From positions 1 to 64,000 of IMG/VR virus record IMGVR_UViG_3300042520_001980: 64,000 nt of DNA; one strand, written 5' to 3'. A model generated the notes under the pieces. That model made no database searches. It was given only the letters and a program-made list of their open reading frames with translations, and was not told where the DNA came from. A program made the position numbers and the translations under genes. Shown in pieces: positions 5,111 through 51,464 of the stretch (position 1 is the first letter of the stretch; each line of letters starts with the position of its first letter). This stretch comes from a virus.

Positions 5111-8100
5111 TTAAGAACAGTTCGTTGAGTGTAGACTTACTCGAACATTCAAGTTTTTATTTGCGGACATTGAGCAATTTGCACCGCAAGCTATGGCAGG
5201 AGCCCTTAGGACTTTATTGTACAAGATAGCTGAGTTTGTTAAAAGCCCACCTCGAACATTGGTGTTTGTTACTGTTAAAGCTCTTCTAAAGTTAGCTTTA
5301 TCTGCAGGTATTGCGGTTGTAGTTAACGCTGAAGCAGCCCCTGCCACTAAGCTGTATTGACTTCCGGTGGATATAAACGCACCTGTTGGCAGCACCTGCA
5401 GACTGGGATTCAGCGTTCCTATCTGATCCTTAATACCTAAAAATGGTCTATGGGGAAGAGTGGTAAATACGCTAAAGAAGTTGGCAGTGACTCTCTCTTT
5501 GAGTATTGCTTTGCGCAATAGAGTAAAGTCAAAGGGGGTATAGTAATCCTCTAAAGTTTGAGCTGCAGCAGTTTCTCTGTTTCCGGCAGGGCCGTACTTC
5601 TTTGTACCACATATAAACTTGGAGTCAGCTAGAAAGCCGACAGGGTGTTTTCGACTTAATAATAATGAATCTATTTCGCATGGGCAGTTTAGTAGCCAGC
5701 GAGATTTAATATTAGGACCATTATAGACGTCGTCATATTCATTAAAAGCTGATATATCTGCTCCAAATGAAGGCCCTTGTCCTGGAAGTTCGTTCCATAC
5801 TCCGGACTTGTTTGGACCATATAGAACATATGGCAATTCTCCGTCGTCTACTTCCACCTCAAGCGTTATGTTTACACTGCAGTTTGCATAACTGCTAGCA
5901 CTAGTATAGTCTTTAATGTTAACATTTATTGTAGGCTCATTGAATGGAAGCACGACTTCAGGCGTAGTAGGGCTAGTTAAATTCCAAAAATTAGCAGTTA
6001 CTACATTGCTTGTATCTACGCTGACTGGGTAGTAGCAGCCTTGTTTGGATAGCGCAGGAACTGCAGCGGCAGTGTCTATAGGCCGTAGGAAATAAGGCGA
6101 AGTACCAGAATAGGCAGCAGTGACAGTGGGATTTATGCCCTGCTCATCGTATACGTCAACGGTGCCATACGTATAACCGACTGTCGGATGGAATCTATCA
6201 GAAAATCTATAAGTGGCAGCTGTGGTTGAAGCTTGTAGAAAAGAGTCTGCTGCTGCCGTATCTAGGTTTGCTTTAAGTTTGCTAAATACAGTCCAGGTGT
6301 TGTTCTTGTACGGTATCGTCACTTCCCAGGAGGACAGAGGCAGATTTACCGTGCCCGAGGACGTGACAACAGATATGCGCACGTCCAAGCCTCTAATTTG
6401 TTTTGAATAAGCAGAAGCAGGAATAGTAATAGGAATAGTTTGAGTGCTGTAGCCGGATCCAGAATCCAGAAGACTCAAAGCAACGTTACCACTACTGGCT
6501 TCGACTATACGAATGGGATTAGTGACAAGAGTGTAGGACTCGCCACAGTAGACTTTAGCGTCAGGGGCAAACAATCTCGGGACCAATGGCGCTATGGAGC
6601 CGTCTGTAAGAATGCGTTCGGCACCTGCCGTCTGGCCCTCACAGCCGTAGCCTACTATTCCCAGCTTGCATACTTTGCGCTGACCGAAGTGTATGTTGCC
6701 AACGGCATCTACCTTGAAGTGCGTATTAAACGCAGTAATATTAGCTAGATGAGCACCTGCGCTAATCTGGCTCCAGCTCGGACAGCTAGATCTGAATAGC
6801 ACCGCACTATGCATGCTGCCTGCTGCGTAGTCTATAACGTAATCAGTATACGTCTGTCGAGTGTAGCCAAGAGGAGAGTGGTATTCCAGCAAGGAGTTAA
6901 GAGACTCAAAGTTTACTGCCTCCTCTGCCGCAGTTGCACAACATCTAACAGCCAGGCTGGATTGTGCGGAAGAGCTTACAAATGGGCGAAAGGCTGCAGC
7001 CGGAATAGCCGCAACTTGGTTTCCGTTGAGTAGATCTCTAGCTCCTAGTGCAGGATTGGTAAAGGTACTAGGATACAGCTGAGGCTGGAATCCCAACAGA
7101 GATTGCATGGCCTCTACGGCATGGTGTCCAGGGGGTCCAAATATTGCACCAGACACTGTTCCACCAGTACTACCTATAGAGGTAGTTAGACTAGGAGGAG
7201 TGAAGCTTCTGTCGTAGGTGCTATTTACATTCCAGCGATAATGTCCGTAATAATTCTCCCAGGCATCAGTATTAACTGCCAATCCCTGCACCGATCCCCC
7301 TGCATAGGTTGCATCGTAGCGAGAGACTGCATGAGTATCGAGGAAGCCAAGACCAAATACGCTGTCTGTACCTGATCCAATGCCGTAAATGGTGGTACCT
7401 GGAGGCGCTAGAGATACCAGCGTGGTTCCGTATTCACGTCCATCTCCTGCTCCCCAGGAAATTAATGTCGGCCTAGAGTAGCGAGAACCTTCATTTGTAA
7501 TCAGCCCAGGGGCAACTAATGCCGTAGGAACAACACCAGTGAATAATTGTGTTCCAAGCTCGCTAACGATCTTAGGAGCTCTTGCAATAGTCCCCAAGCC
7601 TACTGCTACAGGCCAATCTCCATCGGTCACGGCCATTATGTGAGCCTTACCTACTTTAAAGCTCTGTAGTGGCACGCTGGGCAACAAAGACAGATCGATA
7701 GGAGCCTGGTAGTTGTCGCTAAACCAGCTACCCAGCCAAGCTACAGGCCTATTGTCCATATTAACAATGGCCACAGTGAGATTGGCGCTTGCCAATGCAG
7801 TAGTCGGCAGTATGTACTCTATGGTGCGATCTGTAGAGTCTCCACTAAGCCTACCCACTACTCCGTTAGCAATACGCTTTATTGGACCAAAGTGAAAGGA
7901 CCTTGTCTTCATTGGCATAGCCGTAGAGCCAGGCCATAAGTACTCTTGTCCTACTCCCGTAGTGTCTTGTCTATTTCTGCGTGCTACCAAATTTCCAGAA
8001 TAAGGACTGTTGGCTTCAAACCTTCCGTGAAGTTGATATGGCGCAAGTAAACTCGTTCTATATACGTCGTTGCCTGTAAAAAATACAGAGGCTTCATAGT

Positions 8101-22649: not shown

Positions 22650-22722
22650 GTACTTGCTTCCATACAAGTGATGTGAAAATTGCGTTATCTGGGAATGCGC
22701 AAACCCTCCCTGATTGAGACAA

Positions 22723-23088
22723 TGGACCTGGGGGGAGTCGAACCCCCGTGCTGAATGACGTATTGAAAGAGCAACTACAAGCTTATCCCACAATTGCAGT
22801 TCGGATTTGCTCGACCCCATGGGCAGGGTTTGCAGATCCTATCCGACTTCGATTCTCAACGGGGTTGGCTCGGAAGCCTCCACCGCCATACCCTGCTGGG
22901 TTTTATCCTGAGCGTCTAGCAGGAGTCCTGCTCAGGATTCCAAGTCAGGCCGCTGCGAGAGCGGGGGACTCAGAGGGGACGTACCATTCGTTGGCAGTCT
23001 TGATTTAGTCGACTTTTTACGGAGCCTTTCGACCAACTCCGGCTTGCTCTCTATCGCAACAATCACCAGTCGAAACCTGGTCAGGCCC
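22723..23088 (-). ncRNA. ssrA: tmRNA
   Basis: 366 nt transfer-messenger RNA. The 5' end GGGCCUG pairs perfectly (one G-U) with CAGGUCC at the 3' end to form a 7-bp acceptor stem with discriminator A; CCA is not encoded. A T-arm GGGGG-TTCGACT-CCCCC and the 5' TTCGACTGG of the D-like region are present, as is the helix ending CTCCGTAAAAAGTCG that precedes the mRNA part in bacterial tmRNAs. The tag frame at 22995-22945 reads ANEWYVPSESPALAAA then TGA. tmRNA rescues stalled ribosomes with SmpB; a phage copy would use host SmpB or a phage one not seen here. Confidence 0.92.
22945..22995 (-). other. tmRNA tag-peptide reading frame
   Basis: Seventeen codons starting with resume codon GCC: ANEWYVPSESPALAAA and stop TGA. 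The hydrophobic AL-AAA end is of the kind recognised by ClpXP-type proteases; the middle VPSESP part is unusual for a tag. Confidence 0.85.
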
Positions 23089-24334: not shown

Positions 24335-24340
24335 ATGAAA

Positions 24341-24427
24341 CGGACAGGGTGGGATTCGAACCCACGGTAGGATTGCTCCTACACAGCATTTCCAATGCTG
24401 CTCCTTCAACCGCTCGGACACCTGTCC
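24341..24427 (-). tRNA. tRNA-Ser (GGA)
   Basis: 87 nt cloverleaf: GGACAGG/CCTGTCC acceptor, anticodon loop TTGGAAA in a CAGCA/TGCTG stem, long variable arm typical of Ser, T-loop TTCGAAT. Discriminator G. Confidence 0.95.
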
Positions 24428-24489
24428 AAACCGCAGGCCTGGAGCAGCGCAGAGCATACTCCAGGCCTGGGTAACACGCCCGCACGCTC

Positions 24490-24741
24490 TCAGCGGGGCT
24501 TGGTGGAGGAGCAGCGGCTGATGCGATCGTCCTGATCAGCGACTACTCTCTCGATTTCGTCTGTACGACGCAGCGTGTCTCGGCGCAGGTCTTCAACTGC
24601 TTCCCACAGGTCCCTACGAACGGACTCAAACTCCCCCTCTTGTGCCTTACGGGCAGCCTTGGAAAGCTCGTGCCAGTAGAGAGCGCCCATGATTGCAGTG
24701 GTGCAGGCAAATGCGATTACGGCGATTTCGGTAAATGTCAT
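24490..24741 (-). CDS. Membrane-anchored coiled-coil protein
   Basis: 83 aa. One N-terminal membrane segment (about residues 5-23, IAVIAFACTTAIMGALYW) then a charged coiled coil rich in Glu/Arg. AAAGGAA lies upstream of the start. Possible lysis accessory or membrane scaffold; unknown. Confidence 0.65.
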   Translation of the reverse strand: MTFTEIAVIAFACTTAIMGALYWHELSKAARKAQEGEFESVRRDLWEAVEDLRRDTLRRTDEIERVVADQDDRISRCSSTKPR

Positions 24742-24774
24742 TCGATTCCTTTTCTTAGGTTTCAGTCGCGAAGT

Positions 24775-24793
24775 GCGACCCTACAGGGTCGCA
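24775..24793 (-). other. Hairpin in the 5' leader of 24490-24741
   Basis: GCGACCC-TGTA-GGGTCGC forms a 7-bp perfect stem with a tetraloop between two genes. No U-run follows closely, so RNA processing or leader structure is more likely than termination. Confidence 0.4.
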
Positions 24794-24816
24794 GTCTAGC
24801 AAAGAAACTTCAAGTG

Positions 24817-25176
24817 TCAAACAAGAGCGTAATGTGATTTACGAGCGCATTCTGTACATAGCACTCGCAACCATTTATTTCTTTTGTGCATTGCGCTGGG
24901 ATAGTAACCGCAGTCCTGGCAGGTTCTGGAAGCCTGTAGGGAGAACCCCTTTACAATGTTTACAGATATCAACGTAGGATTAACCAACTTTACATCCAGG
25001 GTTCCGTACAACTCCTTCATGCTTTGCACGGTGAAATCTCTGGAGACTAGCTGCTGCTGTCTAAGAGTATTGAACTCATGTAGCAGATCTATTCCCAGCA
25101 TTACCCAGCCTTTTGGAAGCTGAATGTTCATCACGTCTACAAAGTCATAATTGGGATAAATTGGGAATGGTTGCAT
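24817..25176 (-). CDS. Zinc-ribbon phage protein
   Basis: 119 aa. The C-terminus has CQDCGYYP and LCTEC, a four-Cys ribbon, preceded by QSMKELYGTLDVKL. This order matches a common phage family in which QxKEKFGxLRFY precedes a TCExCG...LCDEC ribbon. No function is established. Confidence 0.65.
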   Translation of the reverse strand: MQPFPIYPNYDFVDVMNIQLPKGWVMLGIDLLHEFNTLRQQQLVSRDFTVQSMKELYGTLDVKLVNPTLISVNIVKGFSLQASRTCQDCGYYPSAMHKRNKWLRVLCTECARKSHYALV

Positions 25177-25208
25177 GGTGCTAATCAGCGGTAGATTATG
25201 TTAACGCG

Positions 25209-25391
25209 TTAAAGCACCTTTTGCAGTAGACGAGAAATGGTGTGCAGCAGAGACCAGATCAGCAGGCCAAGCATGGCCCACCAACCTCCTTGCCACATCA
25301 AAGCCACAGGAATGGCCAATAGGACCAGTACAAGGGCCAGTAGACCCACAATCATGGTAACGGCAAGCAGCGCCGCAAGCCAGCCTCTCAT
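25209..25391 (-). CDS. 60-aa membrane protein, holin-like size
   Basis: Starts MRGWLAALLAV at 25391 in an ATGA overlap with the preceding stop. Two hydrophobic segments (about residues 5-28 and 32-50) separated by a short GGWW turn, and a basic tail. Size and topology resemble small class II holins, but no cassette context supports it. A longer in-frame start would read through the upstream gene. Confidence 0.5.
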   Translation of the reverse strand: MRGWLAALLAVTMIVGLLALVLVLLAIPVALMWQGGWWAMLGLLIWSLLHTISRLLQKVL

Positions 25392-25663
25392 AGGACTGTA
25401 GACCGCAGTTTCTTTGCAGCTGTCTTTAGTGCAGCAATTTGCCTTAGAGTGTCCTTGTGCATTGTTTTCTTTGGTGACCATTCTTGCTCCAACAATACTA
25501 CTAGCGCTTCGTAGGTGTTTATCAGCTTCTCCAAACGCTCTATCTCTGCCAGCGAGCGCATGTTTATCTCGACAACGCGCTGCTCGAACACCGGGGTAGG
25601 TACTCCTTTGTATCCAGGGACTGGTTTTACTAGAGTTACTTTAAGTTCTTTCTTTTTAGGCAT
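25388..25663 (-). CDS. Hypothetical lysine-rich helical protein
   Basis: 91 aa from MPKKKELKV at 25663 (AGG upstream). Basic N-terminus, then helices with RSLAEIERLEKLINTYEAL. Unknown. Confidence 0.6.
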   Translation of the reverse strand: MPKKKELKVTLVKPVPGYKGVPTPVFEQRVVEINMRSLAEIERLEKLINTYEALVVLLEQEWSPKKTMHKDTLRQIAALKTAAKKLRSTVL

Positions 25664-25700
25664 TTGATACCTAGGGGAAAAGCAGGCAGGTAAGCTCTGC

Positions 25701-25979
25701 TTAAACAACTACATCCGATAAGGCACTGGGATTGGCATAAGGCCCCAGATACTCCATTACCGGATGACTTTTTATTCCAATTGTAATTTTCATGTGCTCG
25801 ACCACTCTTATCAACCAACGCCAGTCTGTGCTCTCCAGGACTAGTTTGTATGTGTCGTCTTCAAGCTGCTCAACGTAGACCACGCTGGGCCAGTTGGGCT
25901 TTTGATCTTTGTTCAAGCACGCTTTACTGACCAGCACGGTCATTCGAAACGGCTTTTGTTTCTTTATTTTTGGTTTCAT
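25701..25979 (-). CDS. Hypothetical protein next to tRNA-Leu
   Basis: 92 aa from MKPKIKKQK at 25979, only 2 nt past the 3' end of tRNA-Leu(CAA). Mixed alpha/beta with WRWLIRVVEHM. Upstream in-frame starts lie inside the tRNA and are rejected. Unknown. Confidence 0.6.
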   Translation of the reverse strand: MKPKIKKQKPFRMTVLVSKACLNKDQKPNWPSVVYVEQLEDDTYKLVLESTDWRWLIRVVEHMKITIGIKSHPVMEYLGPYANPSALSDVVV

Positions 25980-25981
25980 AA

Positions 25982-26066
25982 TGGCTTTGGTGGGAATCGA
26001 ACCCACACGCCTTTAGAGGGCGTCGGATTTTGAATCCGATGCGTCTGCCAGTTCCGCCACAAAGCC
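25982..26066 (-). tRNA. tRNA-Leu (CAA)
   Basis: 85 nt: GGCTTTG/CAAAGCC acceptor, anticodon loop TTCAAAA in TCGGA/TCCGA, long variable arm, T-loop TTCGATT, discriminator A. Decodes UUG. Confidence 0.95.
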
Positions 26067-26069
26067 TAA

Positions 26070-26151
26070 TGCCCTGAGTGGGAATCGAACCCACACGCCT
26101 TTCGGCTGCAGATTTTAAGTCTGCTACGTCTGCCAGTTTCGTCATCAGGGC
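26070..26151 (-). tRNA. tRNA-Leu (UAA)
   Basis: 82 nt: GCCCTGA/TCAGGGC acceptor, anticodon loop CTTAAAA in GCAGA/TCTGC, long variable arm, T-loop TTCGATT. Four bases separate it from the next tRNA-Leu, with which it shares the T-arm sequence. Confidence 0.95.
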
Positions 26152-26156
26152 GGGAC

Positions 26157-26191
26157 AGGTATTATGGCTGGTCCTTAAACACATAATACCT
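26157..26191 (-). other. Hairpin between tRNA-Leu and tRNA-Lys
   Basis: AGGTATTATG and CATAATACCT form a 10-bp perfect stem around a 15-nt loop; a likely processing signal in the tRNA transcript, or a weak terminator without a U-run. Confidence 0.45.
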
Positions 26192-26212
26192 GCGAGGCCA
26201 ACACGACCTCAA

Positions 26213-26285
26213 TGCGCTCGGTGGGACTTGAACCCACGACTTACGGATTAAAAGTCCGCTACTCTACCAACTGAGTTACGAGCGC
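26213..26285 (-). tRNA. tRNA-Lys (UUU)
   Basis: 73 nt: GCGCTCG/CGAGCGC acceptor, D-arm AACTCAGTTGGTAGAGT, anticodon loop CTTTTAA, T-loop TTCAAGT, discriminator A. Confidence 0.96.
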
Positions 26286-26291
26286 AACTTG

Positions 26292-26954
26292 TCATTTACG
26301 CCGGGGCAGTACATATGCACCTATGCCATCCACTCGATCCTTTGAAGTATAGGACCGGTATTCGACATCATGCATGTGTTTTGTAACTATGTCAAGCGAT
26401 GGATTCCGAACATCGTATTTTTCATCGACCGCCACCTTGGCGATCATATGATCGCATCTCGGTATGCCCAACGGAAAGTTGGCGTTCTTAATTCTGCACG
26501 GTCCACGCCACACCCAGGTGTCCTGACAGTACTTGCCCAGGGGATCTAGAGACCAAAGGCCTTCGTAGGCAGAAGGTATCCATCGGGTGAGACAGAGAAA
26601 CATGTCTCCAGTTACGTATTGGTCGAGTTCTTCCAACACATCAGGCTCTATCAGTATGTCTGAGTTTGCCAGAATGTACAAATCTTCCGTCGTACCCCGA
26701 TTAGAATAATCAAAGAAGTCCTGATAGGTCGGGCGAACACTTGATTCCGCGAGCCGTACACATCCAACTTTTTGTTTTCTAATTTCAGAAAAACGAACAT
26801 AGGCCTCAGGAGTAAACTCGCTAAAGAGCACTAATTCTGCGGTTGGATTGGATGAAAAACAGCTTCTGCTGTTTTTTGTCAAACACTTTCCAAGTTCGTC
26901 ATAGCGATCGGGATTCGGACAGTCGTACCAGAATGGCGTCATAAAGTAAATCAT
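26292..26954 (-). CDS. Glycosyltransferase-like protein
   Basis: 220 aa. YILANSDILIEPDVLEEL resembles the DxD region of GT-A glycosyltransferases of the type found in large phages, followed by FLCLTRW and CQDTWVWRG, and a late HMHDVEYRS. Sugar transfer to DNA, virion or host glycans is possible; donor and acceptor are unknown. It overlaps the upstream gene by 4 nt. Confidence 0.5.
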   Translation of the reverse strand: MIYFMTPFWYDCPNPDRYDELGKCLTKNSRSCFSSNPTAELVLFSEFTPEAYVRFSEIRKQKVGCVRLAESSVRPTYQDFFDYSNRGTTEDLYILANSDILIEPDVLEELDQYVTGDMFLCLTRWIPSAYEGLWSLDPLGKYCQDTWVWRGPCRIKNANFPLGIPRCDHMIAKVAVDEKYDVRNPSLDIVTKHMHDVEYRSYTSKDRVDGIGAYVLPRRK

Positions 26955-27298
26955 GATTCAAAGACTATGGTCACATAGTCTGCCTTCTTAAGGACGATCT
27001 CGGTCCACCTAGGCGCATTGATTTCCTTGGAGTTCTTGACCCCCATAAATATCGCTTTTCCGCAAACCTGGTAGCTGACTCCTCTGCATATCAGCATCAG
27101 CTTACTAGCCAGTTCGTTGTGTTTTCCAGGCTCGTCTTTTTCCGGCACAAACATCATCAGGCCATCTCCCAGGTCTATGGCCATCGGCCAGGATTCCAGA
27201 ATAGACGGTATCTCTGCGGTGTTAATCGAGGTTCTCTCCACCTTTTGAACCGAGTCTTTGCCGGCGGGATGAAGTATGACTACTTCTAACTTTTTCAT
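26951..27298 (-). CDS. Hypothetical alpha/beta protein
   Basis: 115 aa from MKKLEVVILHPAGK at 27298, an ATGA overlap with the 42-aa ORF. Contains AIDLGDGLMMFVP and a strand ending YVTIVFES. Unknown function. Confidence 0.6.
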   Translation of the reverse strand: MKKLEVVILHPAGKDSVQKVERTSINTAEIPSILESWPMAIDLGDGLMMFVPEKDEPGKHNELASKLMLICRGVSYQVCGKAIFMGVKNSKEINAPRWTEIVLKKADYVTIVFES

Positions 27299-27423
27299 CT
27301 GTGCTGTCCTACGAAGAAGGTGTCCAGAGTCTTGTAATACGCAGTCCAGAACAGCTTGGGCTGCATCCAATTTGGAGTGTGGGCCAGCCACCACTCCATT
27401 ACGAATTCTATTTTTCTTAGCAT
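27295..27423 (-). CDS. 42-aa aromatic small protein
   Basis: MLRKIEFVMEWWLAHTPNWM..., rich in Trp/Phe/Tyr, stop overlapping the next ATG. It begins 4 nt after a terminator hairpin; translation is supported mainly by coupling. Possibly membrane-associated. Confidence 0.45.
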   Translation of the reverse strand: MLRKIEFVMEWWLAHTPNWMQPKLFWTAYYKTLDTFFVGQHR

Positions 27424-27426
27424 TTG

Positions 27427-27463
27427 AAAAGGGCCTGGCCACTTTTGAAGTGTGACCAGGCCC
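27427..27463 (-). terminator. Terminator after tRNA-Arg
   Basis: GGGCCTGGTCAC and GTGGCCAGGCCC pair, followed by TTTTC on the minus strand, 14 nt after the 3' end of tRNA-Arg. Confidence 0.7.
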
Positions 27464-27476
27464 CATGAAAGAGGAA

Positions 27477-27550
<74 letters not shown>

Positions 27551-27557
27551 TCCTTGT

Positions 27558-28097
27558 TTAGCTGCTGCAGAGTTCTAGGACTGGAGCCAGCTTGCCCCAC
27601 TTGATTCTGCGCTTCAGGAACTTGTACAGGGCCCAGGTGACCCTGCAGTCCTGCATGCAGTAGGAAGCCATCTTAGGGGATTGACGACTCCAGTCAATAG
27701 GAGGTTTGTCCTTGTGCACTCCTAGTCTATAGCCCCAGGCTTCCAGAGAGTTAGACAACTTACGATCGGGATTCCGGATTCGTTTTTCCCGAAATCCATT
27801 TGGAAACATCGACTTAGCCCGACGGTAAGTGCAGAACACCCGGGGAGTTTTCAAAGTTTTCTGTGTCCAGGTCTGCAGAACGTTGACGTCGAACTCCGCA
27901 TTATGGGCGATGATCTCGTCTGCGGTGTACACCATCCACATTCCGAATGACAGATTGTCGCCTTCGAAGGTGTATTCGTATCCGGTGTCTGCATCAATGG
28001 CGCACAGGCAATGCAGCTTGGTAAGAGAGGATCGGTCTCCCTTGTTCCAGGCATTGAAGTCGATGGCGTTGGTCTCGGTGTCTATCACCAGCTTCAT
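27558..28097 (-). CDS. DEDD-type 3'-5' exonuclease
   Basis: 179 aa. Exo I motif LVIDTET at residues 3-9, Exo II IIAHNAEFDVNVL at about 61-73, and Exo III with MASYCMQDCRVTW near 145-157 (DEDDy-like), as in the proofreading domain of family A polymerases of the T7 type. No polymerase domain is attached, so it is a stand-alone exonuclease or a split proofreading subunit. Lies between two tRNA genes. Confidence 0.85.
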   Translation of the reverse strand: MKLVIDTETNAIDFNAWNKGDRSSLTKLHCLCAIDADTGYEYTFEGDNLSFGMWMVYTADEIIAHNAEFDVNVLQTWTQKTLKTPRVFCTYRRAKSMFPNGFREKRIRNPDRKLSNSLEAWGYRLGVHKDKPPIDWSRQSPKMASYCMQDCRVTWALYKFLKRRIKWGKLAPVLELCSS

Positions 28098-28114
28098 GAC
28101 GGTCCTTTCTTGAA

Positions 28115-28186
28115 AGCGGACGACGGGATTCGAACCCGCAACAGCTAGCTTGGAAGGCTAGCACTCTACCGTTGAGTTACATCCGC
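28115..28186 (-). tRNA. tRNA-Gly (UCC)
   Basis: 72 nt: GCGGATG/CGTCCGC acceptor (one G-U), anticodon loop CTTCCAA in CTAGC/GCTAG, T-loop TTCGAAT, discriminator U. Decodes GGA/GGG. Confidence 0.95.
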
Positions 28187-28640: not shown

Positions 28641-28738
28641 TGCACCCGGTGGGATTCGAACCCACATTATCCGGCTTATCTGGCCGGTGCTTTAACCTGA
28701 TTATAAGGCAGGCTGCTTAACCATTTAGCTACGGGTGC
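28641..28738 (-). tRNA. Atypical tRNA, apparent anticodon UAU, long variable arm
   Basis: 98 nt. Acceptor GCACCCG/CGGGTGC, T-arm GTGGG-TTCGAAT-CCCAC and a GG-containing D-loop are good. The anticodon arm is CCTGC-CTTATAA-TCAGG (last pair C-U) or GCCTG/CAGGT with a 9-nt loop; both place TAT in the middle (Ile, AUA). A 30-nt variable region holds a perfect CCGGC/GCCGG hairpin, which Ile tRNAs normally lack. The identity is therefore uncertain. Confidence 0.7.
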
Positions 28739-48733: not shown

Positions 48734-49073
48734 TGAAGGGATCGTTCTCTCCCATCAAGTGCTTGGTTGACTCCGTGGGTGTGTTCGGAGTGTTCTCCGC
48801 ATTGGGTTCCAACAGGCCCATAAGCCTCAGGAGATCCTCCTGGAAGATGATCGGCCTATAGCACTTCATCAGCATTGCGGTCCTCTTCTTGGCCTGCTCG
48901 TATGAGCATCTGTGAATTACGCCATCCACCACGATTGCCGAAGATGCCTGAGGATCCTTCGACAGTAGCGTCTTCAGCCCTGGTGTTCGAATTGCGCACG
49001 CCAGATCTGTATGGTGGACTAAACGCCATCCGCGAGGTCCATCGCCATGGTTGAGAGTTAGGCAGATGTACAT
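48675..49073 (-). CDS. Hypothetical protein
   Basis: 132 aa. N-terminal strands MYICLTLNHGDG and a VVDGVIHRCSYEQAKKRT region, C-terminal tail rich in Asn/Pro/Thr. Shares its last base with the endolysin stop region (TAATG-type overlap). Unknown. Confidence 0.55.
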   Translation of the reverse strand: MYICLTLNHGDGPRGWRLVHHTDLACAIRTPGLKTLLSKDPQASSAIVVDGVIHRCSYEQAKKRTAMLMKCYRPIIFQEDLLRLMGLLEPNAENTPNTPTESTKHLMGENDPFNGDDPFWHDYRSEGGSSAA

Positions 49074-49498
49074 TACTCTGCCTCCTTCAGCTTCGCCTGC
49101 ACCTTGGCCCAGTAGGCCTTGGTGCTGCTCTTACGGTGACCCTTGGGGCCACCGTTATGGATACGGGCCATGTCCTCCCAGCTGGCTCCCTTGGGAGCAT
49201 AGCGGGCCATGTAGGCCTTGATGACCTCTCTCGCGTAGGCAGGATCCTTGACTGCCTGGTAGCCTCTGGCCTTGAGATCCTGGCGGTGTTCCACCGCGTC
49301 GAGCCAGTAGCTATGCCAGATCTGATAGGCTCCAAGGGCTTTGCCCTTGTCGCCAACCGCATTGTTGGGGTCCTTTTCGGACCCAGTCTCCACCTTCTGG
49401 ATGGCGTCCAGGAAGGTGTCCCAGGTCTGAGCCTGGGCGGTGGTGGGAACGGCGAGGTACAGCATCATCGCCACGATGATTCCAATAACAGGCTTCAT
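49073..49498 (-). CDS. Secreted endolysin (transglycosylase/lysozyme-like)
   Basis: 141 aa from MKPVIGIIV at 49498. A signal peptide ends at TAQA (about residue 22), so export by Sec is likely, as for signal-peptide or SAR endolysins. Glu in KVETGSE is the probable catalytic acid, followed by GKALGAYQI and a C-terminal WEDMARIHNGGPKGHRKSST, as in SLT/GH-type phage lysozymes that cleave the peptidoglycan glycan chain. It needs no holin to leave the cytoplasm, though a holin can time lysis. Confidence 0.75.
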   Translation of the reverse strand: MKPVIGIIVAMMLYLAVPTTAQAQTWDTFLDAIQKVETGSEKDPNNAVGDKGKALGAYQIWHSYWLDAVEHRQDLKARGYQAVKDPAYAREVIKAYMARYAPKGASWEDMARIHNGGPKGHRKSSTKAYWAKVQAKLKEAE

Positions 49499-49558
49499 TG
49501 CATTTGTTTCCTGTTGCTGATGAGAAGTCCTGTCGGAACGCCCGACAGGTAAAACCCG
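49499..49558 (-). other. Endolysin leader with hairpin (repeat of 49807-49866)
   Basis: Minus-strand order: GGGTTTT, ACCTGTCGGGC / CCGACAGG hairpin, then CAACAGGAAACAAATG before the start. The same order and bases recur upstream of the next gene, so the leaders are paralogous. Confidence 0.6.
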
Positions 49559-49560
49559 AA

Positions 49561-49806
49561 CTACTTCAAGTAGTCTGGGGAATATACGTACCATCCCGCG
49601 TCGGGGATCTGTTCATCCCCAGGCGGAAACACTTCCGCATAGAACTGCAGTTTGGGACTTTCTCCCAAAAGCGGGTATCCGTCTCTCACTCCTAATCGGG
49701 GAGAGAGATGCCGTACTCGCTGCAAATGCCTTTTCGCACCCCTTCCAGTGCGAAATAGCAAATTGATTCGTCCGTCGTCCTTGTCTTTGAATTGAACGCA
49801 ATACAT
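49561..49806 (-). CDS. Small hypothetical protein
   Basis: 81 aa (MYCVQFKDKDDGRINLLF...), with CAACAGGAAAC upstream, the same ribosome site region as the endolysin. Basic middle and Tyr/Pro-rich end (YAEVFPPG, GWYVYSPDYLK). Unknown function. Confidence 0.6.
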   Translation of the reverse strand: MYCVQFKDKDDGRINLLFRTGRGAKRHLQRVRHLSPRLGVRDGYPLLGESPKLQFYAEVFPPGDEQIPDAGWYVYSPDYLK

Positions 49807-49866
49807 GTTTTTTGTTTCCTGTTGCTGTTGAAAATCCTGTCGTAACGGTCGACAGGTAAAAACCCA
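49807..49866 (-). other. Paralogous leader hairpin
   Basis: CCTGTCGACCGTTACGACAGG forms a stem as in the endolysin leader, preceded by GGGTTTTT and followed by CAACAGGAAACAAA. Could be a terminator-antiterminator or an RNA-processing site. Confidence 0.55.
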
Positions 49867-50011
49867 AACTCCTTACCTCGCGGAGCCTGGGTCGAGGGGG
49901 AAAAGATGCGGTTTAATAAGCCTCCCGCTGGAGTTCAACACTCAACAGCGGGGGCCTTGGGGGTTCTGAAAAGACCCACAACCCCCACCGGGATTGCAGG
50001 CCGTAGATGTA

Positions 50012-50085
50012 TGGGCCGGGTGGGATTCGAACCCACGCCTTATCGATTATGAGTCGACGGCTCTAGACCGCTGAGCTACCAGCCC
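50012..50085 (-). tRNA. tRNA-Met (CAU)
   Basis: 74 nt: GGGCTGG/CCGGCCC acceptor (one G-U), D-arm AGCTCAGCGGTCTAGAGC, anticodon loop CTCATAA in GTCGA/TCGAT, T-loop TTCGAAT, discriminator A. It could be elongator Met or a lysidine-modified Ile2; I cannot separate these. It lies directly 3' of the giant structured RNA. Confidence 0.93.
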
Positions 50086-50094
50086 AAAGTTGAA

Positions 50095-50812
50095 GGTTGC
50101 TAGGCGCCGGCCGGACGCTTTGCTCAGATAGACCTTCCGCTACCCCACACTATCCCGCAGTGGAGCGTCGATTGTTTCCTATGCAATTGCTCCATGTGCC
50201 GGTATCGCTCCGGTCCGTTATATACATGGACTGCCGCAGGTAGAAGAGAGTCGGTGTTACCCGGCCCCACAGGGGCCCTTCTCCCAATGCCTAGTATACT
50301 TGGCATCGGTTTGCTTGCGACAGCTGCTGTGGTTTAGTGCCAAGATTCCAGATCTGACTTGGCGTTTGTAGAGGTGTACCTTAGATAATAAGGCTCTACA
50401 CTTTGTTGCGTTTCAAGGGGGATCAGCCAACCTTTGGTACCGAGGTGCAACTGGCTTCGGCAGACTTGACAGAGTGCGCAATCCGACGGGTTGCGCCAAC
50501 GTCTACTCAACCACATTAGCCTGTCTTCATGTGGTAGCCTGAGCAAGCTTCAACGGGCCTAAACCCTCCACTGGCTCAAGACGGTTAATTTACGATTCAG
50601 GTTCCGTAGTCCTGAATCCCGGAGATGTGTTCGTCTCCGACCCAGACTCCTATTAACCCGGAAGTCGCGAGTTGCCATTCTCGTATGGCTGCCACTCGAG
50701 CGGAGTGACGTGTACGGAGGAGCTCAGGTGCACCTAGCCCTCAAGTAATGCTCCTACTGAAGAAGCATAGCTTGAGGGCCAGGCCGTAGTCGTCCTACGG
50801 CCTGGTTCCTCT
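50095..50812 (-). ncRNA. Giant structured non-coding RNA (GOLLD/ROOL-like candidate)
   Basis: About 700 nt without a credible ORF. At least eleven perfect hairpins can be read: 50779-50805 (11 bp), 50738-50778, 50620-50639, 50594-50618 (8 bp), 50511-50534, 50476-50496, 50367-50400 with an inner stem at 50379-50393, 50339-50363, 50287-50306, 50263-50277 and 50192-50229 with an inner stem. This density is far above chance. It lies between a small gene and tRNA-Met; GOLLD and ROOL RNAs are large ornate RNAs of phages often found beside tRNAs. I did not compare it with their consensus, so membership is a hypothesis. Confidence 0.7.
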
Positions 50813-51154
50813 TCAGTTAGCAGAAACTGCAGCGGCAGCGGCATCCAGATCTCGGATGTCTCGCAGCCTAGTTTCCAGCATTTGCAGCGAGTACTGAATG
50901 TCTGAGCCTCGCGCTTCTCGCGCTTCTGGAGTCAGCTCCAGCCATTTCTTGACAGCTTCCTTGGAGCCGAATGCAGACATAGGCAGACAATACTGCACTA
51001 GGTCCACAATCTCTTCAAGGCATTGCCAGTTGTAGCTGTCCAGGCTGCGCTTGGCCTGGAATAGATCCCCTTCTAGTACAGCTCGAATGCCGGATCCGGG
51101 GGAAATACCGTTCTTGACATAACGCATCAGACCCTCAACTATCGCTACTCGCAT
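50813..51154 (-). CDS. Hypothetical protein upstream of the giant RNA
   Basis: 113 aa from ATG 51154 (AAGGAG eight bases upstream). Helical, with SYNWQCLEEIVDLVQYC and an Ala-rich end. Its stop abuts the first hairpin of the structured RNA, so both are on one transcript. Unknown. Confidence 0.6.
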   Translation of the reverse strand: MRVAIVEGLMRYVKNGISPGSGIRAVLEGDLFQAKRSLDSYNWQCLEEIVDLVQYCLPMSAFGSKEAVKKWLELTPEAREARGSDIQYSLQMLETRLRDIRDLDAAAAAVSAN

Positions 51155-51387
51155 GCATTTATCTCCTTTCAATGAAGATCGTAGGAGGTCCAAGCGTGTG
51201 CCTGGGCCTCGTGGCGAACCACATCGATGGGTTTCAACCTACGCAGATGCCTAATACCACCTGCAGTAAGCTCCGTTCTCGTAGGAGGCTACTCGGACCG
51301 TAGCTGGTCGTATGCTTCAACACCCACTATCGATTAGATAAAATGGGCTGTAAGCGGCCCTCTGAAAAGCTACTGAAGAGGACTATG
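51155..51387 (-). other. Long 5' leader, apparently structured
   Basis: About 230 nt between the promoter at 51388-51420 and the 113-aa gene. No ORF of note. Several local inverted repeats (GGTTTCAACC, palindromic ATCGAT twice, TAGGAGGCTACT region) suggest RNA structure; it might be the 5' domain of the giant RNA or a regulatory leader. Confidence 0.45.
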
Positions 51388-51420
51388 TCATGTTACCCCA
51401 TATATGCTGTATTTTTAGCG
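51388..51420 (-). promoter_or_regulatory. Phage promoter-family member upstream of the giant RNA
   Basis: Minus strand: GCTAAAAATA, 14 nt, then TAACATGA, with GGGG just before the second box. Same box spacing as the copies at 54-55 kb. It lies directly after a terminator and would drive the leader, the 113-aa gene and the structured RNA. Confidence 0.55.
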
Positions 51421-51435
51421 TATAAAATGAGGTAT

Positions 51436-51464
51436 AAAAAAGCCCTTCTTTTGATCGAAGGGCT
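51436..51464 (-). terminator. Rho-independent terminator
   Basis: AGCCCTTC-GATCAAAA-GAAGGGCT followed by TTTTTTA on the minus strand, 12 nt past the stop of the 64-aa gene. Confidence 0.9.

Follow-up and report, generated by a model that had tools for sequence, protein, structure and literature searches.

What is encoded in the gene-free stretch directly upstream of tRNA-Met in this uncultivated phage, and does it belong to a known class of large phage RNA? The window that we analyzed comprises the first 64 kb of a 174,569-base (174.6-kb) IMG/VR virus record. Positions 50087-50812 (minus strand) contain no gene and are flanked by tRNA-Met(CAT), at 50011-50086, and by the stop codon of a gene encoding a 126-amino-acid (126-aa) protein. 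A sequence-only reading of this locus had described a hairpin-packed block transcribed toward tRNA-Met and had likened it to the GOLLD and ROOL giant RNAs, adding that it could be a new class. Read along the minus strand, the features of the locus are as follows.

51390-51419, minus strand: promoter-like element GCTAAA-N18-TAACAT, a candidate promoter
51358-51382, minus strand: 5′ stem-loop TCCTCT...AGAGGG, just downstream of the promoter-like element
50813-51193, minus strand: predicted 126-aa gene, function not assigned, directly upstream of the RNA and in the same direction
50087-50812, minus strand: large structured noncoding RNA, whole block as kept in L006; core homologous in L057 and L054
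50011-50086, minus strand: tRNA-Met, CAT anticodon; its 5′ end is the proposed RNase P cut that would end the RNA
49073-49594, minus strand: Destabilase (i-type lysozyme) family gene (PF05497; 42.6 bits, cut-off of 26.2)

We gathered related loci by scanning IMG/VR with the neighboring proteins and with RNA patterns. Besides identical copies, three contigs (L006, L057, and L054) carry the RNA. The order of promoter-like element, leader, 126-aa gene, RNA, and tRNA-Met is the same in the window, L006, and L057. In L054, the RNA directly follows the promoter-like element, and a different gene lies between the RNA and the tRNA. An RNA block of ~450 to 725 nt sits directly upstream of tRNA-Met, on the tRNA strand, and immediately precedes it in three of the four genomes that carry the RNA; the gap is ~9 nt in L057. 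We found no intrinsic terminator between the RNA and the tRNA in the window, where the tRNA is intact and has no intron. The product of the 126-aa gene had no Pfam match above the cut-off; homologues identified by sequence are present in L057, L006, and L079 and absent from L054. Another locus, L004, encodes a relative of the 126-aa protein and was rejected as a carrier, the RNA being absent. The Destabilase-family gene comes after tRNA-Met, has a start that resembles a signal peptide, and is probably a lysis gene.

Hairpins, folding energy, and reading frames

The block contains 7 perfect, nonoverlapping hairpins (stem of ≥6 bp, loop of ≤14), versus 1.7 ± 1.3 in dinucleotide shuffles. This bears out the description of a gene-free, hairpin-rich block between the 126-aa gene stop codon and tRNA-Met, but the figure of “at least eleven” perfect hairpins in the sequence-only reading requires a shorter stem cut-off. 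Some other 718-bp tiles of the window have 8 to 11 hairpins. The MFE z-score of the block is approximately −5 on either strand, and coding windows of the same phage score −4 to −6. Since coding stretches of this phage fold equally well, folding energy alone is weak evidence, and we rejected it as proof of an RNA.

Mechanical open reading frames (ORFs) of 60 to 79 codons are present in the block. When the frames of the block were compared with the homologues, no full-length ORF was kept. We rejected a conserved-ORF reading, as the frames are short, are of low identity, and merely track nucleotide similarity.

Covariation in the RNA core

The L006 RNA is 99.2% identical to that of the window over 726 nt, with no indels; the adjacent gene is 64.6% identical. 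The RNAs in L057 (7578-8064) and L054 (about 7010-7630) are both diverged from that of the window. A core of ~450 nt (50338-50790) has homologous counterparts at this syntenic position in both L057 and L054, with ~58% identity between the window and L057. The comparative case rests on these three independent sequence lineages. Helices P1 to P3b and P5 to P9, some with subhelices, occur in the same order in the window and L057, and nearly all of them are found in L054. Helix P4 has a match in L057 alone and is not part of the claimed fold. The elements, from 5′ to 3′, are listed below.

50779-50805, minus strand: hairpin CCAGGCCGTAG-GACGA-CTACGGCCTGG, in the window and L006 only
50733-50783, minus strand: helix P1 with internal P1b (50749-50767); compensatory pairs
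50674-50689, minus strand: helix P2; loop ACGNNA common to the window and L057
50594-50639, minus strand: helices P3a (50620-50639) and P3b (50594-50618)
50510-50535, minus strand: helix P5; compensatory changes, conserved AGGC in the loop
50476-50496, minus strand: helix P6; compensatory changes
50405-50451, minus strand: conserved heart, P7 (GUUGC/GCAAC) and P7b (ACCU/AGGU), nearly invariant in the three lineages
50368-50399, minus strand: helices P8 and P8b; P8b compensatory between the window and L057
50339-50363, minus strand: helix P9; conserved loop ends CCAAGUC ... GGAAUCUUGG
50087-50338, minus strand: accessory 3′ module, in the window and L006 only; absent from L057 and L054

The MAFFT alignments used for covariation were built first, with structure imposed only afterward. 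For the core, 88% of cells were paired, compared to 32 to 42% with the partners slid, and there were nine double-sided pair changes; none of 500 shuffles scored as high. For P1/P1b, 96.5% of cells were paired, compared to 38 to 58% with the partners slid, and six pairs had changed on both sides. Most helices of the core have compensatory changes among the window, L057, and L054. A hand-aligned list of helices, a weaker form of evidence because the helices were chosen by eye, had compensatory changes in 40 of 68 pairs. That list contains nine G-U cells and no A-C cells, a pattern that points to the minus (tRNA) strand. The suggestion of a large, structured phage RNA transcribed toward tRNA-Met is supported. 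The sequence-only reading had staked its case on covariation in relatives and on the lack of a conserved translated ORF across the region, and both came out in its favor. We conclude that there is strong support, from comparison of sequences, for a large structured RNA whose fold is kept by compensatory mutation.

Individual elements differ in what they contribute. The P1/P1b helix, followed by invariant GUGCACCUG, is mutually exclusive with the hairpin at 50779-50805 because CCTGG is common to both. The P7/P7b heart has a near-invariant joining sequence, with AAAG next; its pairing is unproven because these pairs show no variation. P9 is the final element ahead of the tRNA in L057. The accessory 3′ module (~250 nt) has an MFE z-score of −0.9 on the minus strand, i.e., like that of shuffles; it has no diverged homologue, its sole support being its identity in L006.

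Comparison with known RNA families

The Infernal-type check with GOLLD and ROOL covariance models that had been proposed for this locus was negative. The GOLLD model (RF02032) had no match at an E value of ≤10 in this record and nine relatives, in a search run without a positive GOLLD control. The ROOL model (RF03087) also had no match at an E value of ≤10 in the record and relatives, and the control genomes gave none either. A permissive scan of 49850-51450 with both models returned no match at the same threshold, and no other Rfam family reached its cut-off in the RNA block. The same Rfam scan picked up tRNA, tmRNA, group I intron, and pistol sequences elsewhere. The group I intron model (RF00028) had no match in the window RNA, and tRNA-Met is not interrupted; the pistol ribozyme model (RF02679) had no match in the window and was matched in relative L053 alone.

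The setting is like that of GOLLD and ROOL. Like GOLLD, this RNA is large, highly structured, phage encoded, and near a tRNA gene; many GOLLD RNAs are longer than 800 nt, and GOLLD env-38 is located downstream of a Met-tRNA (PMC12286853). It is similar in size to ROOL (a 659-nt example has been described), which is likewise encoded by phages or prophages near tRNA islands (PMC12286853), but it lacks an RF03087 match at an E value of ≤10. It also differs in layout from GOLLD, whose 3′ region is described as universally conserved and whose 5′ region is less so: here, the core is 5′/central (50339-50790) and the variable module is 3′ (50087-50338). Other large phage RNAs occur in comparable positions. 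ICP1 makes an ~800-nt abundant transcript adjoining its lysis cluster (PMC7567579), and the RNA described here is also near a lysozyme-family gene; phage K has long noncoding RNAs whose position relative to tRNA genes is like that of GOLLD and ROOL (PMC9241854). We found no sequence relation between the ICP1 or phage K RNAs and this RNA using blastn against the phage collection. GOLLD forms a homo-oligomeric cage and rises in expression at lysis, and the ICP1 and phage K RNAs are expressed as judged by RNA-seq, whereas the RNA described here is known from sequence alone.

Hence, size, phage context, and tRNA neighbor are as in GOLLD and ROOL, but membership in either family is not supported, because there is no match to their models and no Rfam family reaches cut-off. 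The evidence favors the suggestion that it could be a new class. With moderate confidence, we regard it as a separate family outside Rfam that falls within the known category of large ornate phage RNAs and would work in a similar way. RNAs of the GOLLD/ROOL type can form RNA-only cages, and their roles are not known (PMC12286853). The presence of another family in this setting, to all appearances unrelated, would point to more than one origin of such RNAs in phages and would make the setting itself (tRNA, lysis gene) a clue to function.

Distribution of the RNA

The core model R1, which has 159 positions, scored 182, 182, 151, and 148 bits in the window, L006, L054, and L057, respectively, which are its own training sequences. 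Elsewhere in ~0.96 Mb of related loci, the best R1 score was 13.9 bits, and nothing was credible. The RNA is absent from the annotated phage collection, in which blastn with the window, L057, and L054 RNAs gave chance-level matches of ~20 to 30 nt. Two core patterns scanned across 84,980 bacterial and archaeal genomes had no matches. L134 and L178 were considered as homologues and rejected as chance matches within coding sequence. As far as exact-pattern scans can reach, the family looks narrow: four IMG/VR genomes from one group of uncultivated phages, and no cultured phage.

A promoter-like element upstream of the RNA site

An element of the form CTAAA-N18-TANNAT lies ahead of the RNA site in all 10 loci compared, 261 to 390 bases past a phosphoesterase gene, and in these loci a second copy usually lies ahead of the small gene upstream. 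In L006, L055, and L057, as in the window (51358-51382), the element is followed by an equivalent stem-loop. The stricter GCTAAA form occurs at only three sites in the 174.6-kb genome: this locus, 51745 (upstream of a 64-aa gene), and 28729 (within a tRNA-like sequence). We therefore rejected the motif as a general phage promoter. Just upstream of the element, at 51441-51464 (minus strand), a hairpin, AGCCCTTCGATCAAAAGAAGGGCT-TTTTTA, resembles an intrinsic terminator.

Apparent block exchange at the RNA site

L006 has a mosaic makeup. Its 126-aa gene is 84% like that of L057, and the figure is 94 to 96% for the leader, the small gene, and the phosphoesterase gene, but its RNA core is 99.6% like that of the window and 58% like that of L057. 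As read from alignments, the left junction is at about 50834-50860, where the 126-aa gene is in its final codons. The other junction lies within the tRNA, between positions 19 (window-like base) and 28 (L057-like base), and the sequence right after the tRNA is L057-like again. This pattern looks like replacement of the entire RNA, one of the crossovers being within the tRNA; the alternative is a chimeric assembly. The RNA appears to be exchanged between phages as a single block.

The site is a hotspot for RNAs: relatives have unrelated structured, gene-poor stretches there. L053 and L054 are 95.5% identical over the 3′ part of the region, yet they have different RNAs upstream. We tentatively suggest a hypervariable RNA island, i.e., a fixed promoter-to-tRNA slot in which members of the new ornate-RNA family and unrelated structured RNAs, pistol-bearing ones among them, would replace one another as alleles. 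Recombination in the neighboring gene and the tRNA would bring about the swaps, as it does for protein counter-defense genes. Were RNAs to replace one another in this way, their function could be tested by a swap in a laboratory phage.

Several other elements were seen at this site in relatives. A pistol self-cleaving ribozyme lies inside the syntenic RNA island of L053 (7634-7709; 53.6 bits, cut-off of 34.5). A 60-nt sequence that is 77 to 80% like the pistol region occurs in L055 (near 7060) and L104 (near 8045), with no Rfam score at an E value of ≤0.5. Noncoding stretches of these two loci (L055, 7070-7770; L104, 8047-8916) are 85% identical and have hairpins followed by T runs. In L049 (8902-9744; genome G025) and L142 (from about 250), a group I intron that encloses a reading frame interrupts the anticodon loop of tRNA-Met. 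A different structured and conserved 3′ element, CCTGGCCGGC...CCAGGGGAGC...CATGC, with apparent compensatory changes, lies just upstream of tRNA-Met in G025, L062, L142, and L079; between this element and the tRNA, G025 and L142 have a terminator hairpin with a T tail.

Proposed maturation and function

The reading that we favor, with a probability of about 0.62, is a phage noncoding RNA outside Rfam, with an ~450-nt core and an ~250-nt 3′ module, that is cotranscribed, processed, and present as a stable particle in infection. The sequences show ordered helices kept by compensatory mutation, near-invariant loops and joining strands, the lack of a conserved full-length ORF, and conservation or exchange as a block. 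Transcription would start from the element at 51390-51419 and include the 126-aa gene and the tRNA, and RNase P would generate the 3′ end of the RNA by cutting where the tRNA begins. We infer cotranscription and RNase P maturation from the gene order and the lack of a detected terminator between RNA and tRNA; such maturation is not universal, because L054 has a gene between the two. The released RNA might fold into a compact and stable particle, perhaps homo-oligomeric by analogy with GOLLD and ROOL, that would act during infection, beside the lysis gene, possibly as a container, scaffold, decoy, or counter-defense factor.

The exchange seen in L006, where an L057-like upstream half is joined to a window-like RNA and gives way to L057-like sequence again within the tRNA, could instead mark the RNA as an exchangeable cassette for counter-defense or competition, i.e., a decoy or inhibitor directed against nucleases of the host or of rival phages in a hypervariable island by the tRNA. 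The unrelated structured stretches at this site in relatives are consistent with such a role. However, we saw no known target or defense partner, and near-zero divergence in the swapped block also fits constraint plus recent exchange, so we consider this rather unlikely. It is quite improbable that the RNA is a cis-acting element, such as a long structured 3′ UTR or tRNA leader that acts on the 126-aa mRNA, through its stability or timing, or on tRNA maturation. The shared direction of the RNA and both neighbors, with no terminator found between them, and the repetition of this order in L057 and L006 would suit such an element, but in L054 the RNA is present although the 126-aa gene is missing and a different gene precedes the tRNA, and a leader would need neither this size nor a near-invariant heart. 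The group I intron in tRNA-Met of G025 and L142 and the pistol ribozyme at the site in L053 raise the very slight chance that the RNA is what remains of, or is related to, a selfish self-splicing or self-cleaving RNA lodged at the tRNA; the window RNA has no Rfam ribozyme or intron match at an E value of ≤10, and the tRNA of the window is uninterrupted.

Other RNA genes in the window

The window also encodes a tmRNA (22720-23088, minus strand; full Rfam model, 111 bits) with the tag AQDKTQQGMAVEASEPTPLRIEVG, which adjoins a tRNA cluster at 24340-28186. Beyond this cluster, at 28641-28738 (minus strand), lies a 98-nt tRNA that scored 59 bits with Rfam and was not reported by ARAGORN.
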